In this document: piece by piece, positions 48,122 through 60,808 of the stretch
Numbering within the stretch: position 1 is the first letter of the stretch
Layout of the letters: every line of letters begins with the position of its first letter
Source of the DNA: Emcibacter sp.
Lineage (GTDB): Bacteria > Pseudomonadota > Alphaproteobacteria > Sphingomonadales > Emcibacteraceae
Direction: 5' to 3'
Assembly: GCA_021774785.1 (NCBI GenBank)
Contig: JAJFIQ010000023.1
Span: 62,001-126,000 of the forward strand
Length of the DNA stretch: 64,000 nucleotides
Made by a program: the position numbers and the translations under genes
The notes under the pieces: generated by a model
The model's database searches: none
What the model was told of the DNA's origin: nothing
The model's input: the letters and a program-made list of their open reading frames with translations, nothing else

Positions 48122-48157
48122 GTTAGGCACTTTTTTTTCAAAAAGTTAGGCACTTTT
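48122..48157. repeat. direct repeat near attachment site (possible integrase arm sites)
   Basis: GTTAGGCACTTTT occurs at 48122-48134 and 48145-48157, 23 bases apart, that is about two helical turns. The second copy includes the last codons and stop of the integrase gene. The position between the predicted attachment core and int is where arm-type integrase or excisionase sites lie in other phages. Confidence 0.5.
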
Positions 48158-49162
48158 GTCGCCCTTGCTCCATAATTTTATTGTTTTCCGGGCGATCTTT
48201 AACTGGTCACGGCCCCGCGCATACTTCTCAATAGTGGCAAGAGATTGATCTGTTATACTGGCAACCTGTGCGGTCGTGCAGTCAAGTTCAAGCAATGCGC
48301 TTACAGCATTTTTCCGCAAGCCGTGTGGAGAATATCCCTTCACACCCTGCTCTTTGCAGAACTTCATACACCATCTTCTGAAAGCGCCGGGCTTCAAACT
48401 GCCGCCTATTTGGTTTTCAAGAATAGTTACGGCTTTTAAATCTGAGCTTTTCAAGACATCAACCAATTCCCTATGCAGAGGAATAACAATTAATTTGCCC
48501 CGCTTTTTCATTTGCCTGACTTCTATCTCACCTTTTTTAATGGCAGAGCGTGGCATAGGGCAAGCATCAGACGTTCTTTGTCCGGTATAGTAGTGAAGGG
48601 CCACAGCGCGTCTGAAAAGCTCGTCAGGGGCTTCTAGGGCCGCCGCAAGCAATTCATGGGGCCATTGTTCATGTTCACCAAGTCCGGGCTTATGTATGCC
48701 CATGCAGGGGTTGTTGCTTCTTAATTCCAAACCTTCCGCATATGTCATAAGTTTTGATATAGCTGCTAAAAGTTTTATGGTGGTTCCGGGGCGATCATCA
48801 TATTGATTAAGCAAATCTTCAACCTCTATCCGACTGATCGAATATACGTACCTACCCCCGAAAGCCTCTTTGATGATTTTAAAATAATGCCTCTCCCCGC
48901 GTATAGTGCTTTGAGCAAGTTTTTTCCGGTCGGCCCTCGCATTAAATCGCTTGATGAGCCAGTTCATTGTGCCGGGGACTATTGAAGGATAAGTGTCAGT
49001 TTTTCCGGGCTTTGTTTGTTTCAAAAGCTCTTGATAGCGAATAGAAAAATGTGGATCAGTAATATCCGGCATTTTATATTTCTGCCCGCCGCGTCTGAAA
49101 TAATAATAGGTTCGGGTTTTTGATTTATAAGATGTAATATATTTCAAATTGATTGTCCCCAT
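48146..49162 (-). CDS. int: tyrosine-type phage integrase
   Basis: From ATG 49162 (GGGAGAAG upstream) 338 residues; a start at 49189 gives 347 but lacks a ribosome site. In the 347-residue numbering the catalytic residues are Arg205 (YTGQRTSDAC), Lys229, His289 and Arg292 (SPHGLRK) and the nucleophile Tyr323 (IEKYARG). The usual second histidine before the tyrosine is replaced (SITDQSLATI). An N-terminal arm-binding part with YYYFRRGGQKYKMP precedes a SAM-like core-binding domain. It is the last gene of the leftward operon and lies next to the attachment site. Confidence 0.93.
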   Translation of the reverse strand: MGTINLKYITSYKSKTRTYYYFRRGGQKYKMPDITDPHFSIRYQELLKQTKPGKTDTYPSIVPGTMNWLIKRFNARADRKKLAQSTIRGERHYFKIIKEAFGGRYVYSISRIEVEDLLNQYDDRPGTTIKLLAAISKLMTYAEGLELRSNNPCMGIHKPGLGEHEQWPHELLAAALEAPDELFRRAVALHYYTGQRTSDACPMPRSAIKKGEIEVRQMKKRGKLIVIPLHRELVDVLKSSDLKAVTILENQIGGSLKPGAFRRWCMKFCKEQGVKGYSPHGLRKNAVSALLELDCTTAQVASITDQSLATIEKYARGRDQLKIARKTIKLWSKGDKSA

Positions 49163-49371
49163 TGTAAGCCACTTCTCCCATCCAGCCATCTATCAAGAAT
49201 GTGGCGATCCCATCTCACCATAGTACCATCACGCATAGGGGCCGGATAGTAGCCTGAATTTGCCCGTCCTGTCAAAACAGTCTCAGAAACCCCCAAATAG
49301 GCGGCGGCTGTCCGTGCATCCATCATGCGCGGCCAATCTGGTAAATCTGAAAGGGCAAGCTTCTTTTTCAT
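49144..49371 (-). CDS. AlpA/excisionase-like helix-turn-helix protein
   Basis: 75 residues with a MerR/AlpA-type winged helix (MMDARTAAAYLGVSETVLTGRANSGYYPAPMRDGTMVRWDRHILDRWLD). GGAGAG precedes the ATG. Just upstream of and overlapping int, it is the likely excisionase or int regulator. Confidence 0.75.
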   Translation of the reverse strand: MKKKLALSDLPDWPRMMDARTAAAYLGVSETVLTGRANSGYYPAPMRDGTMVRWDRHILDRWLDGRSGLQWGQSI

Positions 49372-51137: not shown

Positions 51138-51734
51138 TCACACAAAGAAGTCTTCCCAATCAATGGCCGTAATAGGCCTTGCTCCCTCACTATCTTTCCC
51201 ACAAATTTCAATGTAATTATGGCCGTTATCATCCAGATGCATAGCATCATCCCCGTCCCACTCCGGCGACATCGGACCTAAATAAGTGTGGGAGATTGAC
51301 AGATCATCAAAATCTTGTATGTGGTTAGCCTCGATCGCCTCACGGACTAGCTCCATTACATCTTCATCCGCCTTTACCGCCGTCTTGAAATCACTAATAT
51401 CAATATGCCCTTCAGCGTAACTGATCATAGGGCCGGCATCTTCCCAACTTGCTGTTTTTATTTTCATACGCGTGGTTTCTCCGAGTATCCGGCGGACTTC
51501 CTGACATGATTTATCAAGCTCTATAAAATCTTCGCTGTCATGCAGTTCACAATAGAGATCATATAGGGTTTTCAATGCATTATGAGTGTTGTCAATTTCC
51601 CTGTGGAGTCTGCCAAGCTGCAACCTCAACCCTTCCATGCACTGCTGGTCTTTCAGACGGGCGAGGGCGTGTTCTCGAAGGTTGGCGGAATCAGCCAGTG
51701 CGATAATGTCGGCTTCTTTGAAGGGGTTGTTCAT
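51138..51734 (-). CDS. unknown 198-residue acidic phage protein
   Basis: Not recognised. It has a helical, probably coiled N-terminal ~90 residues (LREHALARLKDQQCMEGLRLQLGRLHREIDNTHNALKTLYDLY) and an acidic C-terminal half with several Asp-rich stretches (WDGDDAMHLDDNGHN). It overlaps the methyltransferase stop by 4 bases and so is translationally coupled to it. Confidence 0.75.
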   Translation of the reverse strand: MNNPFKEADIIALADSANLREHALARLKDQQCMEGLRLQLGRLHREIDNTHNALKTLYDLYCELHDSEDFIELDKSCQEVRRILGETTRMKIKTASWEDAGPMISYAEGHIDISDFKTAVKADEDVMELVREAIEANHIQDFDDLSISHTYLGPMSPEWDGDDAMHLDDNGHNYIEICGKDSEGARPITAIDWEDFFV

Positions 51735-52783
51735 GCTGCTTCTTTCATGCTGTTTGTTATGGCGCGGCCTAATATCTCCGCTATTTGTGGGACAATGGCG
51801 TTGCCTAGTCCTTTAAGTCGGTCCACCCGCTTGGGTATTTTGCTTGCTACTCTGGGGATTCCATCGTCTCTAAATTGGTCCAATTCTCTGGATACCCCAT
51901 TAGAATTTCCACCCACACCGGATTTAGTTGTCCAGACCCTTCCAACGCTTGCATCTTGTGATCCAACCTGTCGTTGGCCCTGCTCCGGCCATTCTTGCGG
52001 GTCAGTGTCGCTGGACTGCTGCCCTTGTGCATTGAGGCTGTCGGGGTTGGGAAAAGGTTGTATCCTTCCGTCTTTGCCACGGCATCGTTTAGATTTTGAC
52101 TTCTTTTCGGATCTTCTGTCCTGTGACCTTCGTCCGTCCTGAAGTCCCTTGCTTGAGGGGTCGGCCATAGATTGAATTTCGCTATAGATTGTAAACTGTT
52201 CGGCTTGTTTCCTGTGCGATCGCCGAGCCTTTTTGCTTGATCCTTGGGATGCTCTATTATCTCTATCGCCCGTGGCGTTGGATATAGACAAGGATTGCTC
52301 ACCTGTGTGCGCCACAATCCAGACCCTATCCCTTCTGTGTTTGGCGTCGACGGCGCAAGCTGGAATAATAAACGTCCTTGTTCCGTAACCTTCACTTTCC
52401 AAGTCAGCAAGCACGTCATCGAGGCCCATATTGATGTGTCCAGCAACATTTTCTCCAATAACCCAAGTGGGCCGGTGTTTTTTGATGAGATCAAACATAG
52501 CCGGCCAGAGGTGGCGGTCATCTTCCGCGCCTTTTCGCTTCCCTGCCATACTGAAAGGCTGACAGGGGTATCCTCCGGTAATAATGTCAACTGATCCGTC
52601 ATGCTCTAAAGTCCTTATATCGTCATAAATTGGTACTTCTGGAAAATTCTTGTGCAACACCTTCTGGCAATATGGGTCGATCTCGCAAAATCCCACAGTT
52701 TCAAAGCCGCCGGCCCATTTCAGGCCAAGGGCGAAGCCGCCGATGCCACTAAAAAGATCAAGATGTTTTAAAGGTTTATTCAT
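51731..52783 (-). CDS. dcm: C5-cytosine DNA methyltransferase, phage type
   Basis: 350 residues. Motif I is LDLFSGIGGFALGLKWAG (residues 8-25), motif IV GGYPCQPFSMAGKRKG with catalytic Cys (~74), motif VI GENVAGH, motif VIII RDRVWIVAH and motif X RLKGLGNAIVPQIAEILGRAI. The part between motifs VIII and X (about 160-300), where the target recognition domain should be, is hydrophilic and low complexity, and it coincides with a second open frame. No restriction enzyme is adjacent, so it is an orphan methyltransferase, probably protecting phage DNA. Confidence 0.93.
   Translation of the reverse strand: MNKPLKHLDLFSGIGGFALGLKWAGGFETVGFCEIDPYCQKVLHKNFPEVPIYDDIRTLEHDGSVDIITGGYPCQPFSMAGKRKGAEDDRHLWPAMFDLIKKHRPTWVIGENVAGHINMGLDDVLADLESEGYGTRTFIIPACAVDAKHRRDRVWIVAHTGEQSLSISNATGDRDNRASQGSSKKARRSHRKQAEQFTIYSEIQSMADPSSKGLQDGRRSQDRRSEKKSKSKRCRGKDGRIQPFPNPDSLNAQGQQSSDTDPQEWPEQGQRQVGSQDASVGRVWTTKSGVGGNSNGVSRELDQFRDDGIPRVASKIPKRVDRLKGLGNAIVPQIAEILGRAITNSMKEAA
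51847..52602 (-). CDS. overlapping gene inside dcm, 251 residues
   Basis: Lies wholly within dcm on the same strand, shifted by one base. AAGGA stands nine bases before its ATG. The product does not look like a random frame. It has SGRLCLISSKNTGPLGLLEK, LLTWKVKVTEQGRLLFQLAP, three aromatic-PTP-x-A repeats (YPTPRA 107, WPTPQA 146, FPTPTA 184) and ends with LNPVWVEILMGYPENWT. From memory, proteins with these features recur next to or inside phage dcm genes, sometimes labelled methyltransferase. Function unknown; it may be a partner or inhibitor of Dcm. The alternative is a by-product of Dcm's biased composition. Confidence 0.6.
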   Translation of the reverse strand: MTDQLTLLPEDTPVSLSVWQGSEKARKMTATSGRLCLISSKNTGPLGLLEKMLLDTSIWASMTCLLTWKVKVTEQGRLLFQLAPSTPNTEGIGSGLWRTQVSNPCLYPTPRAIEIIEHPKDQAKRLGDRTGNKPNSLQSIAKFNLWPTPQARDFRTDEGHRTEDPKRSQNLNDAVAKTEGYNLFPTPTASMHKGSSPATLTRKNGRSRANDRLDHKMQALEGSGQLNPVWVEILMGYPENWTNLETMESPE

Positions 52784-55172: not shown

Positions 55173-55604
55173 TTACCCTTTAAATTTCTGGTTAAATTTC
55201 TTAAATGCGGCTTTTAGCTCTTCGTCGGAATAATTGTTTTTATAGGCAATGTATTTTAAAGCTTGATGTTCGGTACCGAAAAAACAACCGCATGATATTT
55301 TTGTAACTCCTTGATTTTTGAGGATATAGGCAGGTCGGTTGTTACCTCCTATTTTATCTATATATAAAACATCCGTGATGCCGGTGCCTCTCAGATAGAG
55401 GCCGCCACCCACGGACAGGTTATCCGGCAGCTCCGTGATGCCGGTGCCTTTCAGATCGAGGGAGCCACCCACGGACAGGTTATCCGGCAGTTCCGTGATG
55501 CCGGTACCTTTCAGATCGAGGGAGCCACCCACGGACAGGTTATCCGGCAGCTTTTCCCCGGATTTAATAAGTTTAATAAATTCGCTTTGTGTGATTTTAT
55601 TCAT
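55173..55604 (-). CDS. leucine-rich-repeat-like phage protein
   Basis: 143 residues. After a short N-terminus come three 20-residue repeats of LPDNLSVGGSLDLKGTGITE type (residues ~19-78), then YIDKIGGNNRPAYILKNQ and a C-terminal SCGCFFGTEHQALKYIAYKNN domain. Phages and their hosts carry many proteins with this repeat and tail; the function is unknown. The repeats are almost identical at DNA level, so copy number could change. Confidence 0.8.
   Translation of the reverse strand: MNKITQSEFIKLIKSGEKLPDNLSVGGSLDLKGTGITELPDNLSVGGSLDLKGTGITELPDNLSVGGGLYLRGTGITDVLYIDKIGGNNRPAYILKNQGVTKISCGCFFGTEHQALKYIAYKNNYSDEELKAAFKKFNQKFKG
55375..55554 (-). repeat. three 60-base tandem repeats inside the LRR-like gene
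   Basis: The unit boundary GTGATGCCGGT recurs at 55375, 55435 and 55495, exactly 60 bases apart. Units differ by only a few bases; the first (gene-distal) is the most divergent. In frame, so changes in number keep the gene open. Confidence 0.92.
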
Positions 55605-59496: not shown

Positions 59497-59765
59497 ATAG
59501 AGTTTGTATATGTATAGCAGAAGATGGCGGTTTAAGGATCTATTCTGATGAACTAATTGAATGCTTTATCGTCTCTGATGTATGTAACGCTGACAGGGTA
59601 TATCAGCTTGATTCCCAGAACGGTAACTTGCACATAGGCGTTAAGGAAGTGACTGCGTTGTTGGGAGACAGACCTGTTGGTCATATGAACGATGATAGCT
59701 TGTTAGGCGGTGGCTATACAAGCAAACGCCCCCCATCCACGCGAAAGCTTGAGGTGGTGAAATGA
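59493..59765 (+). CDS. unknown 90-residue phage protein
   Basis: GTG start in a GTGA overlap with the previous gene. MNRVCICIAEDGGLRIYSDELIECFIVSDVC is cysteine-rich for so short a protein; the tail is polar. Not recognised. Overlaps the methyltransferase start. Confidence 0.65.
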   Translation: MNRVCICIAEDGGLRIYSDELIECFIVSDVCNADRVYQLDSQNGNLHIGVKEVTALLGDRPVGHMNDDSLLGGGYTSKRPPSTRKLEVVK

Positions 59766-60808
59766 CTGTTAGAATATACCAAGGCCAATGTCTTGAAATA
59801 TTAAAGTCCATGCCATCCGATTCTGTTGATTGCGTTGTGACTAGTCCCCCTTATTGGGGTCAGCGGGATTATGGCGTTGAGGGTCAATGGGGCATGGAAC
59901 CTACTCTTGAGGAACATATCTCAAATTTAATAGATTTATTTCGAGAAATCCGCCGTGTTTTAAAACCAGAAGGCACGGTATGGCTTAATTATGGTGATTG
60001 TTATGCATCAACGCCAAATGGAAGAAAGGCAGCGGATATAGCCAACGATGACAGAGGGTTTGTTGATAAGCCGTTTTCTACCATACAGGGAAACATGAAG
60101 GCCAAAGACCTTTGCATGGTCCCAAGTAGAATTGCTATTGCGCTTCAAGATGATGGATGGTGGGTTCGTTCTGAAATTATATGGGCCAAACCAAACCCGA
60201 TGCCAGAAAGCATTAAAGACCGCCCCGCTGTGGCCTATGAAAAAATATTTCTACTCACCAAATCAGCAAAATATTTCTACAACGCGGATGCTGTTCGTAT
60301 GCCCCCAACACCGAGCAGCTTGGAAAGGTGGACTCAAGATGTAGCCAACCAAGAAGGGTCAGGTCGCGTTCATAATAAATCTAATGGAAATATGAAGGCG
60401 GTAGGCGGAAAGAAAGACAAGCAACGTGGTCATAGCAGAAGACACGCGGGTTTTAATGATCGTTGGGATAATATGAGTGGTCAAGAGCAAGCAGAGAACG
60501 GTTGCACGCTGAAGAACGTGTGGTGGATATCAACCGCGAACTTTAAAGAATCTCATTTCGCAACATTTCCGCCGCAACTTGCTGAAATTTGTATTAAAGC
60601 GGGATGCCCCAAAGATGGAATAGTCCTAGACCCGTTCGGCGGTGCCGGCACCACGGCCCTTGTCGCAGACCGTCTGCAAATGGACGCGATACTCTGTGAA
60701 CTTAAGCCCGAATACATTGAAATTGCACAGAAGCGCATTGCTAATGAGCAGGGCATGTTTTCAACAGTTGAAATCCATACAAAATTAGATCAGGCGGTGG
60801 CGGAATGA
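59762..60808 (+). CDS. site-specific DNA methyltransferase, N4-C/N6-A type
   Basis: 348 residues with the permuted beta-class order: catalytic motif TSPPYWGQRDYG (residues ~28-39) first, then the SAM-binding motif VLDPFGGAGTTALVADRL near residue 288. SPPY is more typical of N4-cytosine than N6-adenine enzymes. The segment between (about 180-245, rich in Lys, Asn and Gly) may carry target recognition. No cognate nuclease is near. It probably protects phage DNA or alters phage gene control. Confidence 0.93.
   Translation: MTVRIYQGQCLEILKSMPSDSVDCVVTSPPYWGQRDYGVEGQWGMEPTLEEHISNLIDLFREIRRVLKPEGTVWLNYGDCYASTPNGRKAADIANDDRGFVDKPFSTIQGNMKAKDLCMVPSRIAIALQDDGWWVRSEIIWAKPNPMPESIKDRPAVAYEKIFLLTKSAKYFYNADAVRMPPTPSSLERWTQDVANQEGSGRVHNKSNGNMKAVGGKKDKQRGHSRRHAGFNDRWDNMSGQEQAENGCTLKNVWWISTANFKESHFATFPPQLAEICIKAGCPKDGIVLDPFGGAGTTALVADRLQMDAILCELKPEYIEIAQKRIANEQGMFSTVEIHTKLDQAVAE

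Follow-up and report, generated by a model that had tools for sequence, protein, structure and literature searches.

A reading frame nested in a prophage-type cytosine methyltransferase gene probably encodes the second subunit of a split enzyme

A methyltransferase gene with a second frame inside it

The window (the whole stretch of DNA analysed, 64,000 nucleotides from Emcibacter sp.) carries at 51731-52783 (-) a cytosine-C5 methyltransferase (C5-MTase) frame of 350 amino acids, here called alpha, with motifs I-VIII and X and matches to PF00145 (E = 2.3e-43), TIGR00675 (8.7e-37) and phrog_363 (4.8e-83). The surrounding genes are prophage-like and include an integrase (48146-49189), DUF4326, DUF5131 and DUF1367 proteins, an ERF recombinase and an S24-type repressor. 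The original prediction placed a 251-codon gene within this dcm gene, on the same strand in a shifted frame and covering about 72 percent of it. Such a frame, here called beta, is present at 51847-52602 (-): 251 codons and a stop, opening with ATG, in +1 register relative to alpha (Dcm) and covering 71.8% of the Dcm gene. A Shine-Dalgarno-like AAGGA (52612-52616, -) lies nine bases ahead of the beta ATG, as had been noted, and two codons ahead of that ATG an in-frame TAG (52606-52608, -) closes the beta frame.

The overlap takes in the catalytic PCQ of alpha motif IV (52559-52567, -), invariant in a 53-row alignment, and HRRDRV of motif VIII (52322-52339, -), about where strong alpha constraint ends in relatives according to the selection and reverse-null tests below. 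Beta has the three evenly placed motifs of the original prediction, an aromatic residue followed by PTP-x-A, at residues 107-112 (YPTPRA; 52267-52284, -), 146-151 (WPTPQA; 52150-52167, -) and 184-189 (FPTPTA; 52036-52053, -), and the letters bear out their placement opposite the low-complexity stretch of Dcm between motifs VIII and X. The C-terminal block reported for the inner frame was also found: LNPVWV starts at residue 226 and opens a motif-IX-like block, LNPVWVEILMGYPENWT (residues 226-242; 51877-51927, -). Alpha motif X, RLKGLGNAIVPQ (51785-51820, -), follows downstream of the beta stop.

A Pfam comparison of ten window neighbours gave no restriction endonuclease match, and two of the ten had no match of any kind. 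The same prophage region holds a second DNA methyltransferase, of N4/N6 type (59762-60808, +). The window also has an ORF with tandem LPDNLSVGGSLDLKGTGITE repeats (55173-55604, -).

Alpha lacks a recognisable motif IX, and beta carries a candidate

The C5-MTase large domain of alpha includes motifs I, IV (PCQ), VI (ENV) and VIII. We compared both chains with a profile of ordinary C5-MTases (30 genome loci), which has motif IX and then motif X at its C-terminus. Alpha aligned with columns 1-163, comprising motifs I-VIII (E = 2.4e-44), and in a second match with columns 264-285, comprising motif X (E = 5.3e-4, probability 31%); nothing credible aligned in the stretch that separates motifs VIII and X. 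A strict pattern for the ordinary motif IX was found in none of 206 beta-seeded and none of 80 alpha-seeded alpha frames (the best 80 of 596), 286 frames of which some come from the same contigs, compared with 23 of 30 ordinary enzymes. A profile-span test for motif IX in alpha was positive in 9 of 206 and 15 of 80 (again the best 80 of 596), which we tentatively put down to alignments bridging the gap. The AlphaFold2 model of alpha is mostly confident over residues 1-163, has pLDDT below 50 at nearly all of residues 164-305 and then forms the motif X helices, so that alpha is predicted to be disordered between motifs VIII and X. This model matches the HhaI/HaeIII fold (E about 1e-14, about 170 columns). 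Because it has no recognisable motif IX, alpha alone would be an incomplete enzyme.

Beta is harder to place. Pfam and NCBIfam hold no family that matches it at E ≤ 1, and the beta profile matches no chain among PDB sequences at E ≤ 1. Its AlphaFold2 model is poor (pLDDT 61.8, pTM 0.27), and a fold search with that model gave no match at E ≤ 0.001. A chain that needs a partner in order to fold could well be predicted poorly by itself, yet the poor model is no evidence that beta is such a chain. The best match of the beta profile to the ordinary profile falls on motif IX, in register (E = 0.054, probability 1%), aligning LNPxWVEWLMGFPIGW with LTxRECARLQGFPDEF. As this match is weak by itself, we base the assignment of a putative motif IX on position, register and selection, including the scores of real and permuted sequences. 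The strict beta-type form of motif IX occurs in the +1 frame of 182 of 206 beta-seeded loci and 57 of 80 alpha-seeded ones (the best 80 of 596).

The nested pair occurs in many lineages

When the inner frame was searched against phage databases, as originally suggested, it matched phrog_1008 over 246 residues (E = 1.1e-36) and could be placed in 86 phage records; Paenibacillus phages, for the most part near-copies, account for 54 of these. The library calls phrog_1008 'DNA methyltransferase', a name that implies a whole enzyme, whereas on this evidence the beta-type relative would be a nested partner chain. Homologues with an intact inner frame proved abundant. A match to phrog_1008 occurs in 17 of 299 genomes of the window's phylum, the window's own included. 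The record titles of genome-contig loci (the best 80 of 142) name Bacillota, Bacteroidota, Roseovarius and other Pseudomonadota, Chlorobiota, Nitrospirales, Verrucomicrobia, Spirochaetes, Anaerolineales and others, a loose host assignment because many are contigs of metagenome-assembled genomes. In one Roseovarius chromosome record (OX638333.1) the locus occurs five times, and the match statistics of the copies are equal (L025, L026, L027, L029 and L030); the stretches of the last four are not letter-identical to L025, and the copies are either repeated prophages or an assembly matter.

A first beta profile matched 204 of 207 loci collected with beta as query (a set that includes the window's own locus and repeats), and in each of the 204 a matched ORF overlaps a dcm-profile ORF in the +1 frame; the three loci without a match to this profile are weak phrog_1008 loci. 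The statement in the original prediction that such proteins occur near dcm genes should thus read inside them, and relatives with merely partial overlap were seen in actinophages. A larger profile found beta in all 206 classified beta-seeded loci. Of the 206 ORFs matched by the first profile, three (L060, L073 and L094) also match the Dcm profile in their own frame, possibly as a result of frameshifts.

Because this collection is biased towards beta, we fetched 80 viral loci with an alignment of the outer protein alone (11 rows, all from nested pairs), taking the best 80 of 596 confirmed; they form 72 clusters at 80% identity and represent the nearest alpha relatives, not a random sample of C5-MTases. 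The beta frame was present in 80 of the 80, with full-length beta in one open frame in 78, and one of the remaining two runs off the end of its contig. By comparison, the beta frame was found in none of 30 ordinary C5-MTase loci, where that frame has 4.6 stops per 100 codons; these 30 were retained from the top-scoring PF00145 matches among 150 genomes of the window's phylum, and the set therefore leans to canonical enzymes.

An open frame of this length is rarely left by the Dcm codons alone. When synonymous Dcm codons were permuted within the window's overlap, the +1 frame stayed open in 0.5% of 200 trials. The same permutation over 161 of 163 representative loci, all found through the inner frame, left it open with a median of 0 and a mean of 3.3%.

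Selection acts on both frames and shifts between them

To separate constraint on the two frames, we scored beta in real loci and after permutation of alpha-synonymous codons, using profiles trained on the other half of the rows and 20 nulls per locus. Alignments of alpha and beta held 154 rows, 9 of the 163 representatives having been dropped as short, overlong or late in starting, and two further loci with too short an overlap were left out, which gave 152 representatives. In the N-terminal part of beta the null median was 65 bits compared with 123 for real sequences, in the PTP-repeat part 1.6 compared with 35 and in the motif-IX part -1.4 compared with 47.6. Real beta outscored every one of its 20 nulls in 143 of the 152 loci for the N-terminal part, in 146 for the PTP-repeat part and in 148 for the motif-IX part. 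Part of the N-terminal similarity of beta is therefore a shadow of conserved alpha codons. In the reverse test, with beta-synonymous codons permuted, alpha motifs IV-VIII beat their nulls in all 152 loci and the middle part of alpha did so in 41; the alpha segment opposite motif IX beat its nulls in 97 of 152 and so keeps some constraint.

Overlap-aware substitution counts gave a consistent picture. For beta, dNN/dNS was 0.66 (95% interval 0.57-0.74) and dSN/dSS 0.39 (0.34-0.45) over 67 pairs, compared with 1.18 (1.05-1.32) and 0.95 (0.80-1.14) for the same +1-frame statistics in an upstream control (59 of the 67 pairs). These values show that the inner frame is under purifying selection, with reduced nonsynonymous change in the overlap and no such signal upstream of it. 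The counts used pairs at 80-98.5% nucleotide identity with duplicates removed; dropping 37 of 283 overlap sequences (the repeat loci L196-L207 and identical overlaps) left 246. Some pairs come from the same lineages, dSS rests on few sites (301 opportunities) and divergent pairs are near saturation. Two earlier runs agree in direction with the final one, giving 0.77 for beta and 0.76 for alpha over 121 pairs at 70-98.5% identity and 0.68 and 0.70 over 80 pairs at 80% identity or more.

Splitting the overlap at motif VIII revealed where each frame is held. Alpha dNN/dSN rose from 0.31 before the motif to 1.07 after it, and beta dNN/dNS was 0.66 before and 0.62 after. Computation thus shows that, past motif VIII, the weight of selection moves from alpha to beta. 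Some constraint on alpha persists in this part, as its dNS/dSS of 0.65 (0.55-0.78), a ratio based on few sites, indicates. Together, the null and substitution tests support purifying selection on both frames, as the proposal of a dual-coding locus had anticipated, though unevenly along the overlap. The refuting conditions set for that proposal were tried and did not overturn it.

Single-chain and tandem relatives in actinophages

The actinophage protein Martik gp71 combines in one chain of 408 amino acids the catalytic core, PTPxA repeats, a motif IX block and motif X, with the repeats between motifs VIII and IX. It shares the PTPxA repeats and the motif IX block with the nested pair, but differs in being read from one frame as one polypeptide, motif X included. 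The nested-beta profile matches the C-terminal half of gp71 (E = 7e-12), and at the level of computed profiles the C-terminal half of beta is shown to be homologous to the VIII-IX part of a single-chain methyltransferase. Phages Goose, Andrew and MadKillah encode the core and the PTP/IX/X part in separate ORFs that overlap partially in the +1 register, the second ORF being covered over 182 of its 636 bases in Goose, 239 of 798 in Andrew and 209 of 570 in MadKillah; the beta profile matches these second ORFs with E-values of 1e-21 to 2e-19. All of these E-values, that for Martik included, refer to a search of the ORFs of nine loci. A tblastn search with the Goose second ORF found 571 phage records, 438 of them from Mycobacterium phages. 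In a tree of the catalytic part, which took 60 of 262 nested rows, the nested rows lie on one side of a weakly supported branch (52/54). The other side holds the ordinary methyltransferases together with the actinophage forms, among which single and tandem ones are intermingled.

At the actinophage loci L318, L322 and L323, both members of tandem +1-overlapping methyltransferase pairs are annotated as DNA methyltransferase, and it is the second ORF that carries motifs IX and X, which makes the split AquI-like. In Mycobacterium phage OfUltron (L319, 1504-2263) an alpha-type enzyme is annotated as gp75 and gp76 in +1-shifted frames, and an ORF matching the beta profile (1872-2240, E = 8e-21) overlaps gp76 in a further +1 shift.

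Beta-like matches, mainly N-terminal, also occur in the +1 frame over ordinary or single-chain methyltransferases at L320, L321 and L326 (E about 1e-6), with a strong one at L325 (Magnar; E = 2.3e-15, a 107-codon ORF); these may be shadows or relics. At L320, in Streptococcus phage P0092, an ORF at 1658-2077 bears the annotation 'DNA methyltransferase'; it runs in the +1 frame across a C5-MTase with a motif IX of its own. This ORF matches the N-terminal profile of beta weakly (E = 1.1e-6) and might be a coding shadow that received a gene annotation.

Two chains of one enzyme as the best explanation

We consider it very likely that alpha and beta are two subunits of one split C5-MTase encoded by a single stretch of DNA. 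Alpha would be the catalytic large domain, with motifs I-VIII, a disordered linker and motif X. Beta would be read in the +1 frame from its own ATG and ribosome site just before the PCQ codons of alpha, and would supply motif IX and the variable PTPxA-repeat region, placed where single-chain relatives have their target-recognition domain. Once beta is translated, the chains would join into an active methyltransferase, with target recognition falling to the PTPxA part of beta. The enzyme would mark phage (and host) DNA, presumably against restriction, as phage methyltransferases in general suggest, and nesting would keep both chains on one message. Among the roles first suggested for the inner protein, that of a Dcm partner is the one favoured, with beta as the missing motif IX and recognition part: alpha has no recognisable motif IX, and beta matches the VIII-IX part of Martik gp71. 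No finding here spoke for an inhibitor or for a separate anti-defence factor.

It is unlikely that beta is instead a separate overprinted protein that inhibits or regulates the enzyme or acts as an anti-defence factor. Such a role would suit the N-terminal part of beta, opposite alpha motifs IV-VIII, which is conserved and lies outside the match to single-chain Martik gp71. It sits poorly with the constant presence of an alpha-type frame in the 204 beta-matching loci (of 207), with an alpha that would be incomplete by itself and with the likeness of the C-terminal half of beta to part of a single-chain enzyme.

Very unlikely is a single chain that enters the inner frame by programmed +1 frameshifting and later returns, although selection changing frame after motif VIII, with motif X in the alpha frame, is what such a double-shifted chain would also give. 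It needs two shifts, constraint on beta already begins in the N-terminal part, ahead of the switch, and in the window a stop closes beta just before the ATG. Candidate starts also argue against it: an in-frame start codon lies at most 60 nucleotides from the conserved beta N-terminus in 150 of 154 loci, and a Shine-Dalgarno match of at least 4 bases accompanies the candidate start in 135 of 154 (79 expected). Matches of at least 5 bases before the best candidate start were found in 102 of 154 loci, where 26 were expected; AAGGA in the window is such a site. Beta thus probably starts by itself. Its stop precedes the alpha motif X pattern in only 88 of 147 loci, so the order of the two ends differs among loci.

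A coding shadow, with alpha the sole gene and the inner frame conserved through alpha codons, is extremely unlikely: it would account for the 65-bit N-terminal match that survives permutation and for the beta-like matches over ordinary and single-chain enzymes, the strong L325 match among them, but real sequences exceed nulls in all three parts, and by most in the PTP and IX parts, for which null scores are close to zero; the overlap gives beta a dN/dS below 1, compared with about 1 upstream for the same statistic, alpha more than beta looks unconstrained after motif VIII, and the actinophage tandem pairs carry beta relatives largely outside alpha.

For the split enzyme read from nested frames, we favour, with some reserve, an old phage family spanning phyla, in which a catalytic and a recognition chain share one stretch of DNA and selection is handed between frames and back. 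If this is true, site specificity evolves almost wholly in the second frame and the first is there a nearly free linker; annotation of the outer ORF only would therefore miss the part that sets specificity. The results show a long same-strand overlap, 251 codons here, that selection maintains across phage and prophage-like loci from many lineages. A suspected curiosity becomes a testable enzyme, a specific role can be proposed for phrog_1008, and an enzyme consisting of the outer 'Dcm' protein alone is predicted to be inactive.

Relation to known split methyltransferases

The small chain of EcoHK31I (YGGCCR) is encoded in an alternative frame within the gene for the large one, the arrangement observed at this locus, and M.EaeI is a relative of M.EcoHK31I. 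M.EcoHK31I has been called naturally split (PMC3439449), and the account of its motif layout gives the large chain motifs I-VIII, X and a predicted recognition domain and the small chain only motif IX (PMC3404938). By that layout the alpha-beta pair would be M.EcoHK31I-like, a two-chain C5-MTase with I-VIII and X in alpha and the putative motif IX in beta, but the large chain of M.EcoHK31I is described with the recognition domain (PMC3404938), whereas alpha is predicted to be disordered there and the repeats are in beta. EcoHK31I is also listed as a Type II restriction-modification system (PMC6456624), whereas no restriction endonuclease match was seen among the ten Pfam-scanned neighbours here. 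M.AquI, as outlined in the same account of motif layouts, is likewise a C5-MTase in two chains split after motif VIII, with IX and X in the small chain (PMC3404938). That plan differs from the present one, as here motif X is in alpha and the window's beta stops before it; the Goose, Andrew and MadKillah tandem pairs are closer to the AquI plan than the nested pair is.

No recognisable EcoHK31I appeared among the listed matches of our plasmid and E. coli searches, and the plasmid methyltransferase loci inspected had, by their annotation, no nested partner. Among the papers listed by literature searches there was none on nested phage C5-MTases, a weak indication because most subscription papers lie outside what was searched. 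The kind of split C5-MTase is thus already known from M.EcoHK31I, with the recognition part apparently moved to beta here; the breadth of occurrence and the hand-over of selection are the notable parts.

In E. coli NZ_CP041110.1 (L329, 2489-3658) the nested pair is open in both frames, and RefSeq records it as two incomplete cytosine methyltransferase pseudogene pieces, a prophage misannotation that the nested reading would explain. In an IMG/VR locus (L009, 2210-3791) an insertion breaks the alpha frame immediately ahead of the catalytic PCQ, where GFP is followed by a stop and then LCQPFS. By eye, the insertion resembles an HNH endonuclease in the beta frame, for which the ShiLan element, as presented in PMC11855218, offers a comparison.
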